In this document: piece after piece, positions 8,949-19,460 of the stretch
Layout of the letters: each line of letters starts with the position of its first letter
Position numbering within the stretch: position 1 is the stretch's first letter
Assembly (NCBI GenBank): GCA_030669415.1
Contig: DAOVDS010000005.1
Location: 1-36,320, forward strand
Length of the DNA: 36,320 nucleotides
DNA from: a bacterium
GTDB taxonomy: Bacteria > Planctomycetota > SKW154 > DAOVDS01
Direction: 5' to 3'
Notes under the pieces: model-generated
The model's database searches: none
What the model was told of the DNA's origin: nothing
Seen by the model: the letters and a program-made list of their open reading frames with translations, nothing else
Program-made: the position numbers and the translations under genes

Positions 8949-9070
8949 AGAATCTACAATAGAGAATACAGAACACAGTAGACAGAATACAGACGGGATG
9001 CGGATGCGCGAAGCGCGACAATTTCCATTCTGTATCCTGTATGCTTCATTCTGTATTCTTATACTACATT
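8949..9070. repeat. Heptad-period (AGAATAC consensus) repeat with inverted arms
   Basis: AGAATCT ACAATAG AGAATAC AGAACAC AGTAGAC AGAATAC AGACGGG at 8949-8997; inverted arm 9025-9070. Confidence 0.85.
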
Positions 9071-9074
9071 GGGC

Positions 9075-12000
9075 TTACGGTGTAAAGTATCCTTCGTCCC
9101 ATTGCACATAACCTTTGTCGCGGTCCATGAGGACCTCGCCGCTCCAGGAAGACATGCCGAATCCCGGCACGATGTTCCCTTCTATCTGGAACTGCTGTGT
9201 TTCGCCTATTTCAGGCTGGTTGAATACCGCCGGCAGCACAGGTACCGTGATGCTTGCAGAGAGGCCTGTCTGGGGTATGGGCTTGATAATCATCCAGAAA
9301 AAGGGGCGCGGATGAGCAAAGCCGCGTGTAAGACCTATCATGTAAACCCCACTCTTACCCTGCTCGCTGTTTGTCCATATCATATTCGTGGGCAAGCCGA
9401 CATTGGTCTGCATGTGAACGGGGTTTATCGGGTAAGGGATGTCCGGCAGGGTCGCGTCATACCTGCGGGGGTAGGAAGTTAGGTCGCGAAGGCTGATAGC
9501 CGATTCCCATTCCGTGCCATCCGGGTTCTGCCCGTCCGCCCTTAACCACAGCCCAAGAGCATCGATAGTGAAATTGGGAGGGTTGGCAAATGTGATACCA
9601 TAATGGTACAAAGTCGGGTCTATCGCATCTATTGCAGTTGACCCCTGGCCCAGCTTGACGAGCACCTGTTCAGACCATGAATTATCGGTCGAAAAGCCGT
9701 ATGGTTCAGCATTGACCCAATCCACTGTGGCGCCAGCCGTAAGGTTGCTCGGCAGCCGGATGTCACTTGGGTCTGTGCTGTGCCGGATGGGAGACAGGGG
9801 AGTTGTCGATGAAGTTGAGAAGTCAATTATCGGCGCCTGCAGGAAAGGCGGAGAACCGGCGGGATTCACCTGAAAATGGCCTGAGAAGTAGGCGTACTCG
9901 AACAGGTGATTGCCTGACTGGGGTCCGTAGAAACCGGTAACAGCAGCGTAGTCTTCCCGGTCGCTTGCTATCAGGGAATAGTTTTCCAGGCTCGGGCCGT
10001 CGAAAGGCGTGTTGGGGACCGTCTGGTCGTCCGAAAGACCGGAGGCGAAATCATCTTCGATGTTGAACCACTGCCCCCGGTAGTCGCTCACTTCTACCCA
10101 CCCGGAGTTGCCGGTCGGCAGGTTCATCACTTCGCCGTATAGAGTGAAGTTATTGCCATCCATATCATTTGGGTCAATAAGAGGTATCGTCGCATATGCA
10201 GACTGTACCTGGTCTATGGTCATGTAGGGATATCCGGTATAGCATATTGTTACCTTGGCAGGAACCGGAGGGTTGTTGAAGACTACCTGGCCATCGGCAT
10301 CGGTGAGCAGGTATCCGGTAGGGTCGTCGCCAAGGAAGACCACGACACCCTGAACCCCGACCTGGGTCCCGAAGTCAACTACCGTTACTGTCAGGGTGCC
10401 GCTCTGCTTGCCAGCGGCGCCGAAGACAGGCACGCGCCCCTGGGTGTCCTGGGGGCTCCACAGCCAGAATTCCCGCCACTCGCTCTCGAGCATGTACTGG
10501 GTTCCGAGCTCGAGTTCACTCAGGGCGAAGTCATCGTAGTTCAACGGGCCTGGGGTGTGGTTGGACTCAATGCGCCACACCAGCTTGATGGCGGGGTCTG
10601 CTGTCGGGTCGTCAGTGTACTCCAGTACCTTGAACGGGGCTGTGTTGGGGATTCTGGGCAGCGTTGCGGTGTGGATACCTCCCTGCCTGACGATTATCCA
10701 CTCTTCGTTGGTTTTCGTGTTCACTATTTCAAGGGTGTGTATTCCGAAGGTGTTTGAATCGGACCATTCGAAGGTCGGTATAAGCGAAGTGACAACACCG
10801 CCGGTGCCTGGTTTGTCCAGTACCGGCGTGTCAGGGAAGACGAAATCAGGCAGGTCGGTGTTATAGTCGAACTTCTTCATGCCTATTATCTTTCGGCCGT
10901 ACATGTCCCTCAGGTGCAGGAGCACCCAGTACTCATCGGAGGTGACGGCGAAATAGCCCGGCTGGATGGACGAGTAGGGGAAAGGTCCCCCGTATATCGC
11001 GGTGAGGGGGAACACGCCGTAGCCGCACATGAACCGGTCAACCTCAGCGCGGGTCCGGCCCATGATGAGACAGCCTTCACCGCCCCGCCATATCAGCCCG
11101 TCCGGCGGGTAGAAACCGCCGGGCAGTGTCACGTCACCCGAATCGACCCGAATTGCAGTGGGCGGTGTCAAAGGGAAACCGATGTCCTCAGTATAAGACA
11201 AGCCCCCGGTTAGTGGGCCGAGGTTGTCTCTCACGGCGAAGTTGCTGAAAGCGCCGCCCGTGTTGTCTATTGCGGAAAGCGTGTAGAACTTGTTGGGCTG
11301 CACCCGGACAGTGTAATCACCGTCAGTTATGTTGATGTCGGTGCCGGCCCAGTCCACAAGCTCGGACCCGTGGAGGAAACCACTCGTGGGCACCGGGCTT
11401 ACCGAACCCGATACAGTGCCGAACTGCGGGCTCTTTTTGTCGGAGAGAGGGATGCTGAGCCGTGCAGCATCGACGTCACAGATGGTGAACATGGGATAAC
11501 CCGGGCAGATGACGGTTACGGTCTGCGGGCCGGAAACGCCGTTGAACGTGACCTCGCCCTGCGGGTCGGTGCTGCTGACAGCCTCGGTGTTGTAGCCGCG
11601 CACGACCATTGCGCCGCTTACCGGCGTCAGGTCGCTTTCCAGGTACACTGAAACCTGAAGCGCGCCGCTTGCAGGCCCACCCCCCGCGCCGCCGCGGTGG
11701 ATGATGCTTTTTTGGATGTAAGTGGATTCGTTTCCGGCGTCGTCGCGTGCGTATATGTCAATGTCATTGCTGTCGGCGACCTTCAGGTCGTAGTCTATCC
11801 GGTATGTGCCGCTGCTGAGGCCGTTGTATGACTGGCTGGAGCTGCCGCCTTCCAGATACAGGTTGCAGTCGGAGTCCACGGTTATGCTCATCTCGAGCGT
11901 GCGCAGTTCGTAGTACTGGGGCAGTTGCGGCGGGGCGGCAATGCTGATAGCCGGCTCTGCTGTGTCCTTGTCTGCCGAGCCGGTTGTTATCTCGGAACAG

Positions 12001-13115
12001 GAATCTCCCCGCCAAATCATGGCCTCCAGCGTGATGGGGCCATCATTGAGGAGTGAGGCGTCGATTCCTGTTATAGTAATCTCGGACGGCGCGGGGATCG
12101 AGCTGACTTGCCTGTCGCCGTAAGTGTAGTTTGAACCATCCGAAAGAACTACAACGACCGAGTTCCCGAACTCCACGTTCGAGTTGAGGCCCACCTTCAC
12201 AGTGACGCTGCTTTCTGTGGCGATGTTTATCCAGTCTGCCGGGTTGCTAACACCTGCCGGAATCATCACATAGGTAGGTGTGATATCTATTGTATGGAAG
12301 GAGCTTGTGAAATCGCCGCCATCCAGATTATATCCATCCGTGGACTGAACACTGCCCAGGACGTGGACCTCGTAGTGGTCGCCGGCTACCAGGGCGTCGG
12401 TGGGGTCGAAGACAAACTCGCGAAAATCGGCATCCCAGGAGACACTGCCGTTAAGGGAAACGCCGGAACCCACATGGTAGATATAGAAGCTGGCGCTGGT
12501 TATCGTGGCCGTGTTCATGGGCTTGGAGAAAAGCACGCGAGCCTGGAGGTATGTCTGAAACGGTACTGTGGAACTATCCTGCGGCACTACGCTGACAATA
12601 TAGGGAGAGGATGTCGAGCTGCCTGCGGTCCTGAACGATGAGACGAAGTTGTTGATGACTTTGCCTGGCATCCCGCCCTGGCTGACGTTGTTTATCCTGA
12701 CCGTGATGTCTTCGTTGCCGGGATAAGCGCCGCTTGGAACGAATATCACCTTGGTGCTGTGGTCGTAGAAATAGAAGTTGCCACTGACGGGACCGAACGG
12801 GGAGCCAACCGCGAAGTTCGTACTGTGGATTGTAGACTGGTCTACGCAATGACTGAAGATAACAGTTATAGGCGCGTAAAGGTCCACTCCGTTTTCGCCG
12901 TCGAGGGGCTCGATTGACACAACCACGAAGGGTGGTTCCTCGTGGTCATCACCACCGCCACCCGCGCCGGCTGCAATTCCTGCCAGTGGTATAATCCCGA
13001 ACGGGCCGCAGCCGCCTGCGGCGGCAGAGCAGGAGAGCAGGAGACAGGTGAACAGTAGATATAAGAATCCTGCTCGACTGCGGTCACCTGTTCTACTGTT
13101 CAGCTTTTCTCTCAT
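9075..13115 (-). CDS. Giant surface lipoprotein with Big_5/SbsA-like Ig domain and duplicated carboxypeptidase-regulatory-like modules
   Basis: ATG at 13115 with GGAGG RBS, signal peptide FLYLLFTCLLLSCSAAAGGC; N-terminal PFVVVSIEPLDGENGVDLYAPITVIFSHCVD Ig-like region; the ORF-track start 13241 lies in repeat sequence. Confidence 0.8.
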   Translation of the reverse strand: MREKLNSRTGDRSRAGFLYLLFTCLLLSCSAAAGGCGPFGIIPLAGIAAGAGGGGDDHEEPPFVVVSIEPLDGENGVDLYAPITVIFSHCVDQSTIHSTNFAVGSPFGPVSGNFYFYDHSTKVIFVPSGAYPGNEDITVRINNVSQGGMPGKVINNFVSSFRTAGSSTSSPYIVSVVPQDSSTVPFQTYLQARVLFSKPMNTATITSASFYIYHVGSGVSLNGSVSWDADFREFVFDPTDALVAGDHYEVHVLGSVQSTDGYNLDGGDFTSSFHTIDITPTYVMIPAGVSNPADWINIATESSVTVKVGLNSNVEFGNSVVVVLSDGSNYTYGDRQVSSIPAPSEITITGIDASLLNDGPITLEAMIWRGDSCSEITTGSADKDTAEPAISIAAPPQLPQYYELRTLEMSITVDSDCNLYLEGGSSSQSYNGLSSGTYRIDYDLKVADSNDIDIYARDDAGNESTYIQKSIIHRGGAGGGPASGALQVSVYLESDLTPVSGAMVVRGYNTEAVSSTDPQGEVTFNGVSGPQTVTVICPGYPMFTICDVDAARLSIPLSDKKSPQFGTVSGSVSPVPTSGFLHGSELVDWAGTDINITDGDYTVRVQPNKFYTLSAIDNTGGAFSNFAVRDNLGPLTGGLSYTEDIGFPLTPPTAIRVDSGDVTLPGGFYPPDGLIWRGGEGCLIMGRTRAEVDRFMCGYGVFPLTAIYGGPFPYSSIQPGYFAVTSDEYWVLLHLRDMYGRKIIGMKKFDYNTDLPDFVFPDTPVLDKPGTGGVVTSLIPTFEWSDSNTFGIHTLEIVNTKTNEEWIIVRQGGIHTATLPRIPNTAPFKVLEYTDDPTADPAIKLVWRIESNHTPGPLNYDDFALSELELGTQYMLESEWREFWLWSPQDTQGRVPVFGAAGKQSGTLTVTVVDFGTQVGVQGVVVFLGDDPTGYLLTDADGQVVFNNPPVPAKVTICYTGYPYMTIDQVQSAYATIPLIDPNDMDGNNFTLYGEVMNLPTGNSGWVEVSDYRGQWFNIEDDFASGLSDDQTVPNTPFDGPSLENYSLIASDREDYAAVTGFYGPQSGNHLFEYAYFSGHFQVNPAGSPPFLQAPIIDFSTSSTTPLSPIRHSTDPSDIRLPSNLTAGATVDWVNAEPYGFSTDNSWSEQVLVKLGQGSTAIDAIDPTLYHYGITFANPPNFTIDALGLWLRADGQNPDGTEWESAISLRDLTSYPRRYDATLPDIPYPINPVHMQTNVGLPTNMIWTNSEQGKSGVYMIGLTRGFAHPRPFFWMIIKPIPQTGLSASITVPVLPAVFNQPEIGETQQFQIEGNIVPGFGMSSWSGEVLMDRDKGYVQWDEGYFTP
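13024..13104. repeat. Octad-like repeat copy lying inside the signal-peptide coding region
   Basis: Shares TCCTGCTC(G/C)ACTGCGGTC (17/18) and flanking AGAGCAGG, TGAACAG and CCTGTTCTACT segments with 19376..19460. Confidence 0.75.
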
Positions 13116-13193
13116 TACTCGTCCTCCGTGCAAATCCCCACAAGGTACATTATATACGACGAGTGTTGGCGGGGAGATATTCTCTCTTTGCAA

Positions 13194-13281
13194 AGAATAC
13201 AGTATACAGAAGGTCAGGATACAGGTTCCTGCATTCTGCATTCTGTGTTCTGTATTCTGTATCCTTCATTCTGTATTCTAC
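13194..13281. repeat. Heptad-period (AGAATAC) repeat, second copy
   Basis: CTGTATCCTTCATTCTGTATTC (13257-13278) matches 9037-9058 at 21/22; the left arm AGAATAC AGTATAC is inverted relative to the right arm. Confidence 0.85.
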
Positions 13282-13305
13282 ATTCTATTAACCGCCGCAG
13301 GCGGG

Positions 13306-19349: not shown

Positions 19350-19375
19350 CCATTTTGCCGCATCCGGCAAAATGG
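19350..19375. repeat. Perfect hairpin immediately after the stop codon (possible terminator or mRNA 3' structure)
   Basis: CCATTTTGCCG-CATC-CGGCAAAATGG, 11-bp perfect stem, no T-tract. Confidence 0.75.
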
Positions 19376-19460
19376 TAGAGCAGTGGAGCAGGAGAACGGA
19401 TGAACAGGAGACAAGACTCCTGCTCCACTGCGGTCTACTGCTCTCCTGTTCTACTATCTC
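19376..19460. repeat. Octad-period repeat with inverted arms
   Basis: CAGTGGAGCAGGAG (19381-19394) perfectly inverted as CTCCTGCTCCACTG (19417-19430); 8-bp units AGCAGTGG AGCAGGAG AACGGATG AACAGGAG. Confidence 0.85.

Follow-up and report, generated by a model that had tools for sequence, protein, structure and literature searches.

A dispersed octamer palindrome as the probable source of a lipoprotein signal peptide in a planctomycete

Introduction

Signal peptides derived from repeats and palindromes within coding sequences are already known. In Yersinia pestis, the predicted signal peptide of YPO1552 is made up in part of the RU-2 repeat (Delihas 2007, PMC2759123), and Rickettsia palindromic elements (RPE) of ∼150 bp lie in frame within protein-coding genes, according to the work of Ogata (2000/2002) as it is cited in PMC10969869. 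Other dispersed families comprise the REP elements with RAYT transposases, which are GTAG/CGTC tagged (PMC2817692, PMC3733652), and the TAACTGA heptamer direct repeats of Beggiatoaceae, which are tandem arrays of one 7-mer (PMC4679880).

Here we analyse a repeat at the start of a lipoprotein gene in a window of 36,320 nucleotides (GenBank assembly GCA_030669415.1, contig DAOVDS010000005.1, here C225, positions 1 to 36,320), from a bacterium of the Planctomycetota. While RU-2 is a different, enterobacterial family of 168 nt that gives part of a signal peptide, the window element covers residues 2-35 with the whole core and the lipobox. RPEs, to which it is not known to be related in sequence, resemble it in behaviour as in-frame palindromic repeats of unrelated coding genes (here TrpCF, CobN, a pseudopilin and others), but the present family is mostly intergenic and built of 8-mer units. 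The family shares with REP elements a dispersed intergenic palindrome and a conserved tetranucleotide at the foot of the stem; its tag, however, is GGTC/GACC and not GTAG or CGTC, stem and octamer arms together reach ∼100 nt, and the gene linked to it elsewhere encodes a four-helix-bundle protein. The Beggiatoaceae repeats are likewise short-unit repeats concentrated in intergenic regions, whereas the window family consists of palindromes of degenerate octamers. New here are the different repeat family, the full lipoprotein signal and the presence of unmodified paralogs in the same genome.

Materials and methods

The source genome is a MAG of 4.15 Mb in 448 contigs with 5.6% contamination. Genes were called with a purpose-written gene caller. 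The segment 13019-13125 served as the query for repeat copies throughout the genome, and the lipoprotein N-terminus and the CGPFG codons as queries for paralogs in it; intragenic repeat copies were found within the examined genome stretches.

Results

The gene starts within a few bases of the repeat, and the features of the window used below are as follows.

9075..13115, minus strand: lipoprotein gene, 1346 aa, two Big_5 (bacterial Ig-like) stretches, ATG at 13115
13123..13127, minus strand: ribosome binding site GGAGG, 7 nt 5' of ATG 13115
13008..13010, minus strand: codon 36 (Cys), by paralog comparison the counterpart of the paralogs' lipobox Cys; directly abutted by the element
∼13011..13113, no strand assigned: entire dispersed palindromic element (GC mini-hairpin and octamer palindrome), from homology search and alignment; minus strand encodes residues 2-35
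13011..13025, no strand assigned: GC mini-hairpin GCCGCC-TGC-GGCGGC, with equivalents in other members; minus strand gives A31-A-A-G-G35
13026..13060, plus strand: purine arm AGAGCAGG AGAGCAGG AGACAGGT GAACAGTA GA; minus strand gives core and lipobox LLFTCLLLSCS
13072..13113, plus strand: pyrimidine arm GCTCGA-CTGCGGTC-ACCTGTTC-TACTGTTC-AGCTTTTC-TCTC; minus strand gives the basic n-region REKLNSRTGDRSRA
13078..13085, plus strand: invariant signature CTGCGGTC (GGTC tag beside the covarying stem of the family)
19374..19455, plus strand: second window copy of the family, between convergent genes

The gene caller independently chose the ATG at 13115, which outscores every other in-frame start of the gene. 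Translation from this ATG gives MREKLNSRTGDRSRAGFLYLLFTCLLLSCSAAAGG followed by CGPFGIIPLAGIAAGAGGGGDD, and the minus-strand peptide quoted in the preliminary description is indeed this in-frame product, including its hydrophobic core and lipobox. Residues 2-35 are the repeat element and the first residue outside it is Cys36. All parts of a lipoprotein signal are recognisable, namely a basic n-region ahead of the core (R2, K4, R8, R12, R14), a hydrophobic core (the top seven hydrophobic 13-residue windows of the whole 1346-aa protein start at residues 15-21, all within the repeat) and a lipobox with its Cys, YLLFTCLLLSC matching the general lipobox pattern. Two observations count against the repeat as the source of the signal: residues 39-51, right after the native Cys, are mildly hydrophobic themselves, and coding statistics inside the repeat were uninformative. 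Heptamer-type repeat hairpins of a different family (TATTCTG units) lie on both sides of the gene, at 8949-9059 and 13182-13292. An Rfam search of the window returned a tRNA only.

It had been proposed that the repeat spans 13024-13104 and is homologous to 19376-19460. Both segments are present as quoted, but this extent is too narrow: since homology to the copy in C179 continues up to ∼13113 and the mini-hairpin ends at 13011, the element covers ∼13011-13113. Homology to the second window copy was confirmed (19374-19455, 75%, E 1.7e-8), although the closest relatives are C179:3152-3243 (83% over 93 nt, E 7e-20), at the 3' end of a gene, and C121:1226-1297 (89% over 71 nt, E 1e-19; C121 identity 87-89%), outside genes. 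Members of the family consist of a GC mini-hairpin and 8-nt purine (GARCAGNN) and pyrimidine (CTGYTCNN) units that flank the invariant CTGCGGTC. Most aligned copies of this genome run from a GC-rich mini-hairpin through AGAGCAG-type purine octamers, a short loop and GCTC-NN-CTGCGGTC to pyrimidine octamers. In octamer context CTGCGGTC occurs at 11 places of the genome, at nine of which the purine arm is present too. The genome has 89 matches to the adjacent pyrimidine octamer pair CTGYTCNNCTGYTC and two to the reversed pattern, an excess far larger than chance would give. The homology is thus genuine, and the repeat forms a dispersed family, as had been claimed. Octamer arrays are intergenic in 33 of 46 cases in the own-genome stretches examined, though 86% of that DNA is predicted coding.

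The window copy belongs to this family by homology of its arms, the loop edge and CTGCGGTC. In its stem GA faces GA, a tandem mismatch at the NN of GCAG-NN-GAGC / GCTC-N'N'-CTGC-GGTC. A one-base deletion in the core-encoding purine arm, GAGAACAG to GAGACAG, is absent from the aligned own-genome copies; such a deletion is expected if the reading frame was selected, but represents one event only.

The paralog search identified three other lipoproteins of the genome with the mature start CGPFG, all with conventional signal peptides of 21-22 residues ending in LCS/CGPFG. They are aligned here with the window protein at the mature start (slash).

C356: MVNLSKLSFAVLLLLALLTLCS/CGPFGLIPLLGG, longer form MVNLSKLSFAVLLLLALLTLCS/CGPFGLIPLLGGAAGGGGGG
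C186: MKMPRSSLAVLAAILLLGLCS/CGPFGAGPWY
C411: VVRLFRYVFACVFLFALLGLCS/CGPFGAGPWY
Window lipoprotein: ..LLLSCSAAAGG/CGPFGIIPLAGI

No octamer pairs were found within 400 nt of these three paralog genes. The remaining four places with the CGPFG codon pattern were considered as further paralogs and rejected, being no lipoprotein starts. The paralogs have the N-terminal lipoprotein module in common, but not clearly the rest of the protein, which counts against the repeat having replaced a native signal. Big_5 proteins of relatives also begin with ordinary lipoprotein signal peptides. Searches of GTDB r220 and 59 relatives gave no ortholog of the lipoprotein, only shared domains, and thus no direct before/after comparison; timing and direction of the change consequently rest on the paralogs and on the mainly intergenic location of the other family members. 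The expected relatives lacking the repeat-derived N-terminus were hence seen among paralogs of the same genome.

Beyond this genome, the signature pattern was present in at least 112 stretches of GTDB r220, nearly all of them from Planctomycetota among the 80 listed; in these listed matches the family is mainly one of this phylum. Signature copies of other genomes are intergenic in 111 of 114 cases. A strongly covarying stem is indicated by two dinucleotides, one following the first GAGCAG and the other preceding CTGCGGTC, which are complementary in 72% of copies vs 22% after shuffling (z 13). Simple nested pairing of all octamer units was rejected, because clear covariation is confined to the unit-1 stem. 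Matches to a three-octamer pattern were also numerous in a scan of viral contigs.

Thirty-three of the 114 copies are preceded, at a distance of up to 350 nt, by a tRNA of the same strand, most often tRNA-Pro, and 19 are closely followed by the start of a four-helix-bundle gene or of what remains of one. This linked protein matches PF05635/TIGR02436. Seen from the protein, of 20 loci that share at least 58% identity with it, 18 have a CGGTC-tagged palindrome upstream and 14 a preceding tRNA, two of the 20 rows possibly being one locus; more distant PF05635-like loci (n=11) have the palindrome upstream once and no tRNA. Loci with the order tRNA, palindrome, PF05635 gene include L450-L480, L219, L242, L306 and L313. 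The linked subfamily is absent from the genome of the window in a search at E 1e-15.

Several features of the family favour secretion signals. Repeated CTCCTGCT is free of stop codons and yields LLLSCSPA whichever of the three frames is read. Arg-rich peptides result from the complementary purine units of GGA type. Among 106 family members, lipobox-like patterns occur on the antisense (GACC) strand in 7.9% of frames vs 1.0% in dinucleotide shuffles, and the strict lipobox form in 10.4% vs 0.6%. Due to its stop-free octamers reading LLLSCSPA, the antisense strand is thus ∼8- to 17-fold enriched for such patterns over shuffled sequence. By chance, ∼32% of the frames of the elements stay open, and a fully open frame together with a lipobox-like pattern is found in ∼10% of elements vs ∼2% of controls. 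The repeat is, modestly, pre-adapted as a source of signals.

Other copies are in frame as well. In a TrpC-TrpF fusion (C23; L110:2754-4262) a repeat copy forms the interdomain linker, residues 271-298, between the domains 10-262 and 301-494, and the solved TrpCF chain 1pii lacks such a linker. In a T2SS J-type pseudopilin (C83; L119:4898-5629) the repeat encodes the leader, residues 1-27, ahead of GFTLIEV. CobN (C409; L145:4613-8575) contains a copy at residues 257-280, and its PDB alignments cover residues 172-280 poorly. A 1138-aa protein (C377; L142:2535-5951) has two in-frame copies, and C-terminal tails in C179 and C157 contain further ones.

Discussion

The repeat lies at the expected site of a signal peptide, its junction is exact, the element stopping at the codon of the cysteine (13008-13010), and of a native hydrophobic core nothing remains ahead of the native Cys. 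Replacement is therefore a better description than simple insertion. We consider it probable, with good confidence, that this lipoprotein gene of the CGPFG type lost its native signal peptide to a dispersed octamer palindrome with the GGTC tag, and that the palindrome now encodes the signal. The exaptation of a dispersed repeat as a predicted secretion signal, as suggested in the preliminary description, finds support in the paralogs without the repeat and in the exact Cys junction.

The repeat could instead be neutral passenger DNA, tolerated in a dispensable cleaved presequence without acting as a signal. Such a role would fit the other in-frame copies in tolerant places, namely the TrpC-TrpF linker, the pseudopilin leader and the C-terminal tails. 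With the native core gone, however, any export of the protein would have to depend on the core encoded by the repeat, and we regard a mere passenger as unlikely. Slightly less probable still is that translation starts at GTG 12926 (codon 64), so that the repeat would be untranslated 5' DNA, open by luck, and the protein no lipoprotein. This start has a weak ribosome-site-like GAGG upstream, an open frame is no rare accident in these elements, and copies in other genomes lie almost entirely outside genes. But the paralogs share residues 36-55 (CGPFGIIPLAGIAAGAGGGG) at the protein level, directly after their signal peptides; these residues are hence translated here also, which requires initiation within the repeat or ahead of it. 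ATG 13115 moreover has the better ribosome site and was the choice of the gene caller, and lipoprotein signal peptides are found at the N-termini of Big_5 proteins in relatives. A misjoining of contigs across the repeat is very improbable despite the fragmentation and contamination of the MAG, since repeat copies of ∼100 nt that are at least 11% different should not collapse and a misjoin would hardly produce the frame, the ribosome site and the exact junction at the Cys by accident.

If the repeat did replace the native signal, its pyrimidine arm would, in antisense, provide the arginine-rich n-region, the purine arm the Leu/Phe/Cys-rich core ending in LLLSC, and the GC mini-hairpin the AAAGG directly before the native lipobox Cys. 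We infer export of the lipoprotein, presumably via Sec, and a lipidated cysteine, predicted to be C29 or C36. Signal peptidase II would then remove the repeat-encoded presequence. As the presequence is cleaved off in the lipoprotein pathway (Lgt, signal peptidase II), such a change of the signal peptide may well be tolerable. At this locus the path from non-coding repeat DNA to a putative complete targeting signal is well resolved, with donor family, exact junction and unmodified paralogs in one genome. The origin of signal peptides becomes directly testable with a repeat library.

The link to tRNA and a four-helix-bundle gene may be a sign of a mobile element that works without a transposase, and is possibly more novel than the signal peptide case; searches of the open-access literature yielded nothing relevant on this association. 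Mobilisation of the repeat by the PF05635 protein is our guess. As a tentative and rather doubtful extension, the repeat might be a non-autonomous copy of an undescribed planctomycete element (tRNA, terminator-like hairpin, GGTC-tagged octamer palindrome, four-helix-bundle gene) that spreads via the PF05635 protein instead of a transposase. It would then supply secretion signals, linkers and tails time and again, because its antisense arms encode Arg-rich and then Leu/Ser/Cys-rich peptides. Two candidates for mobilisation within the source genome were rejected. Its three PF05635 genes do not belong to the linked subfamily at E 1e-15, and an octamer pair is present in one of these loci only, ∼440 nt from the match; the loci of its seven Y1_Tnp matches, considered for a REP/RAYT mechanism, have no octamer pairs or signature.

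Repeats within predicted genes also occur in other genomes. In G040, a genome of the same phylum with an octamer family of its own, 12 of 27 octamer arrays overlap predicted genes (loci L192-L202), sometimes with several octamer copies per predicted gene, as in L201:6299-10063. In a distant genome, a predicted membrane protein (L309:6204-6704) carries the signature repeat in its N-terminal tail, ahead of a hydrophobic segment.
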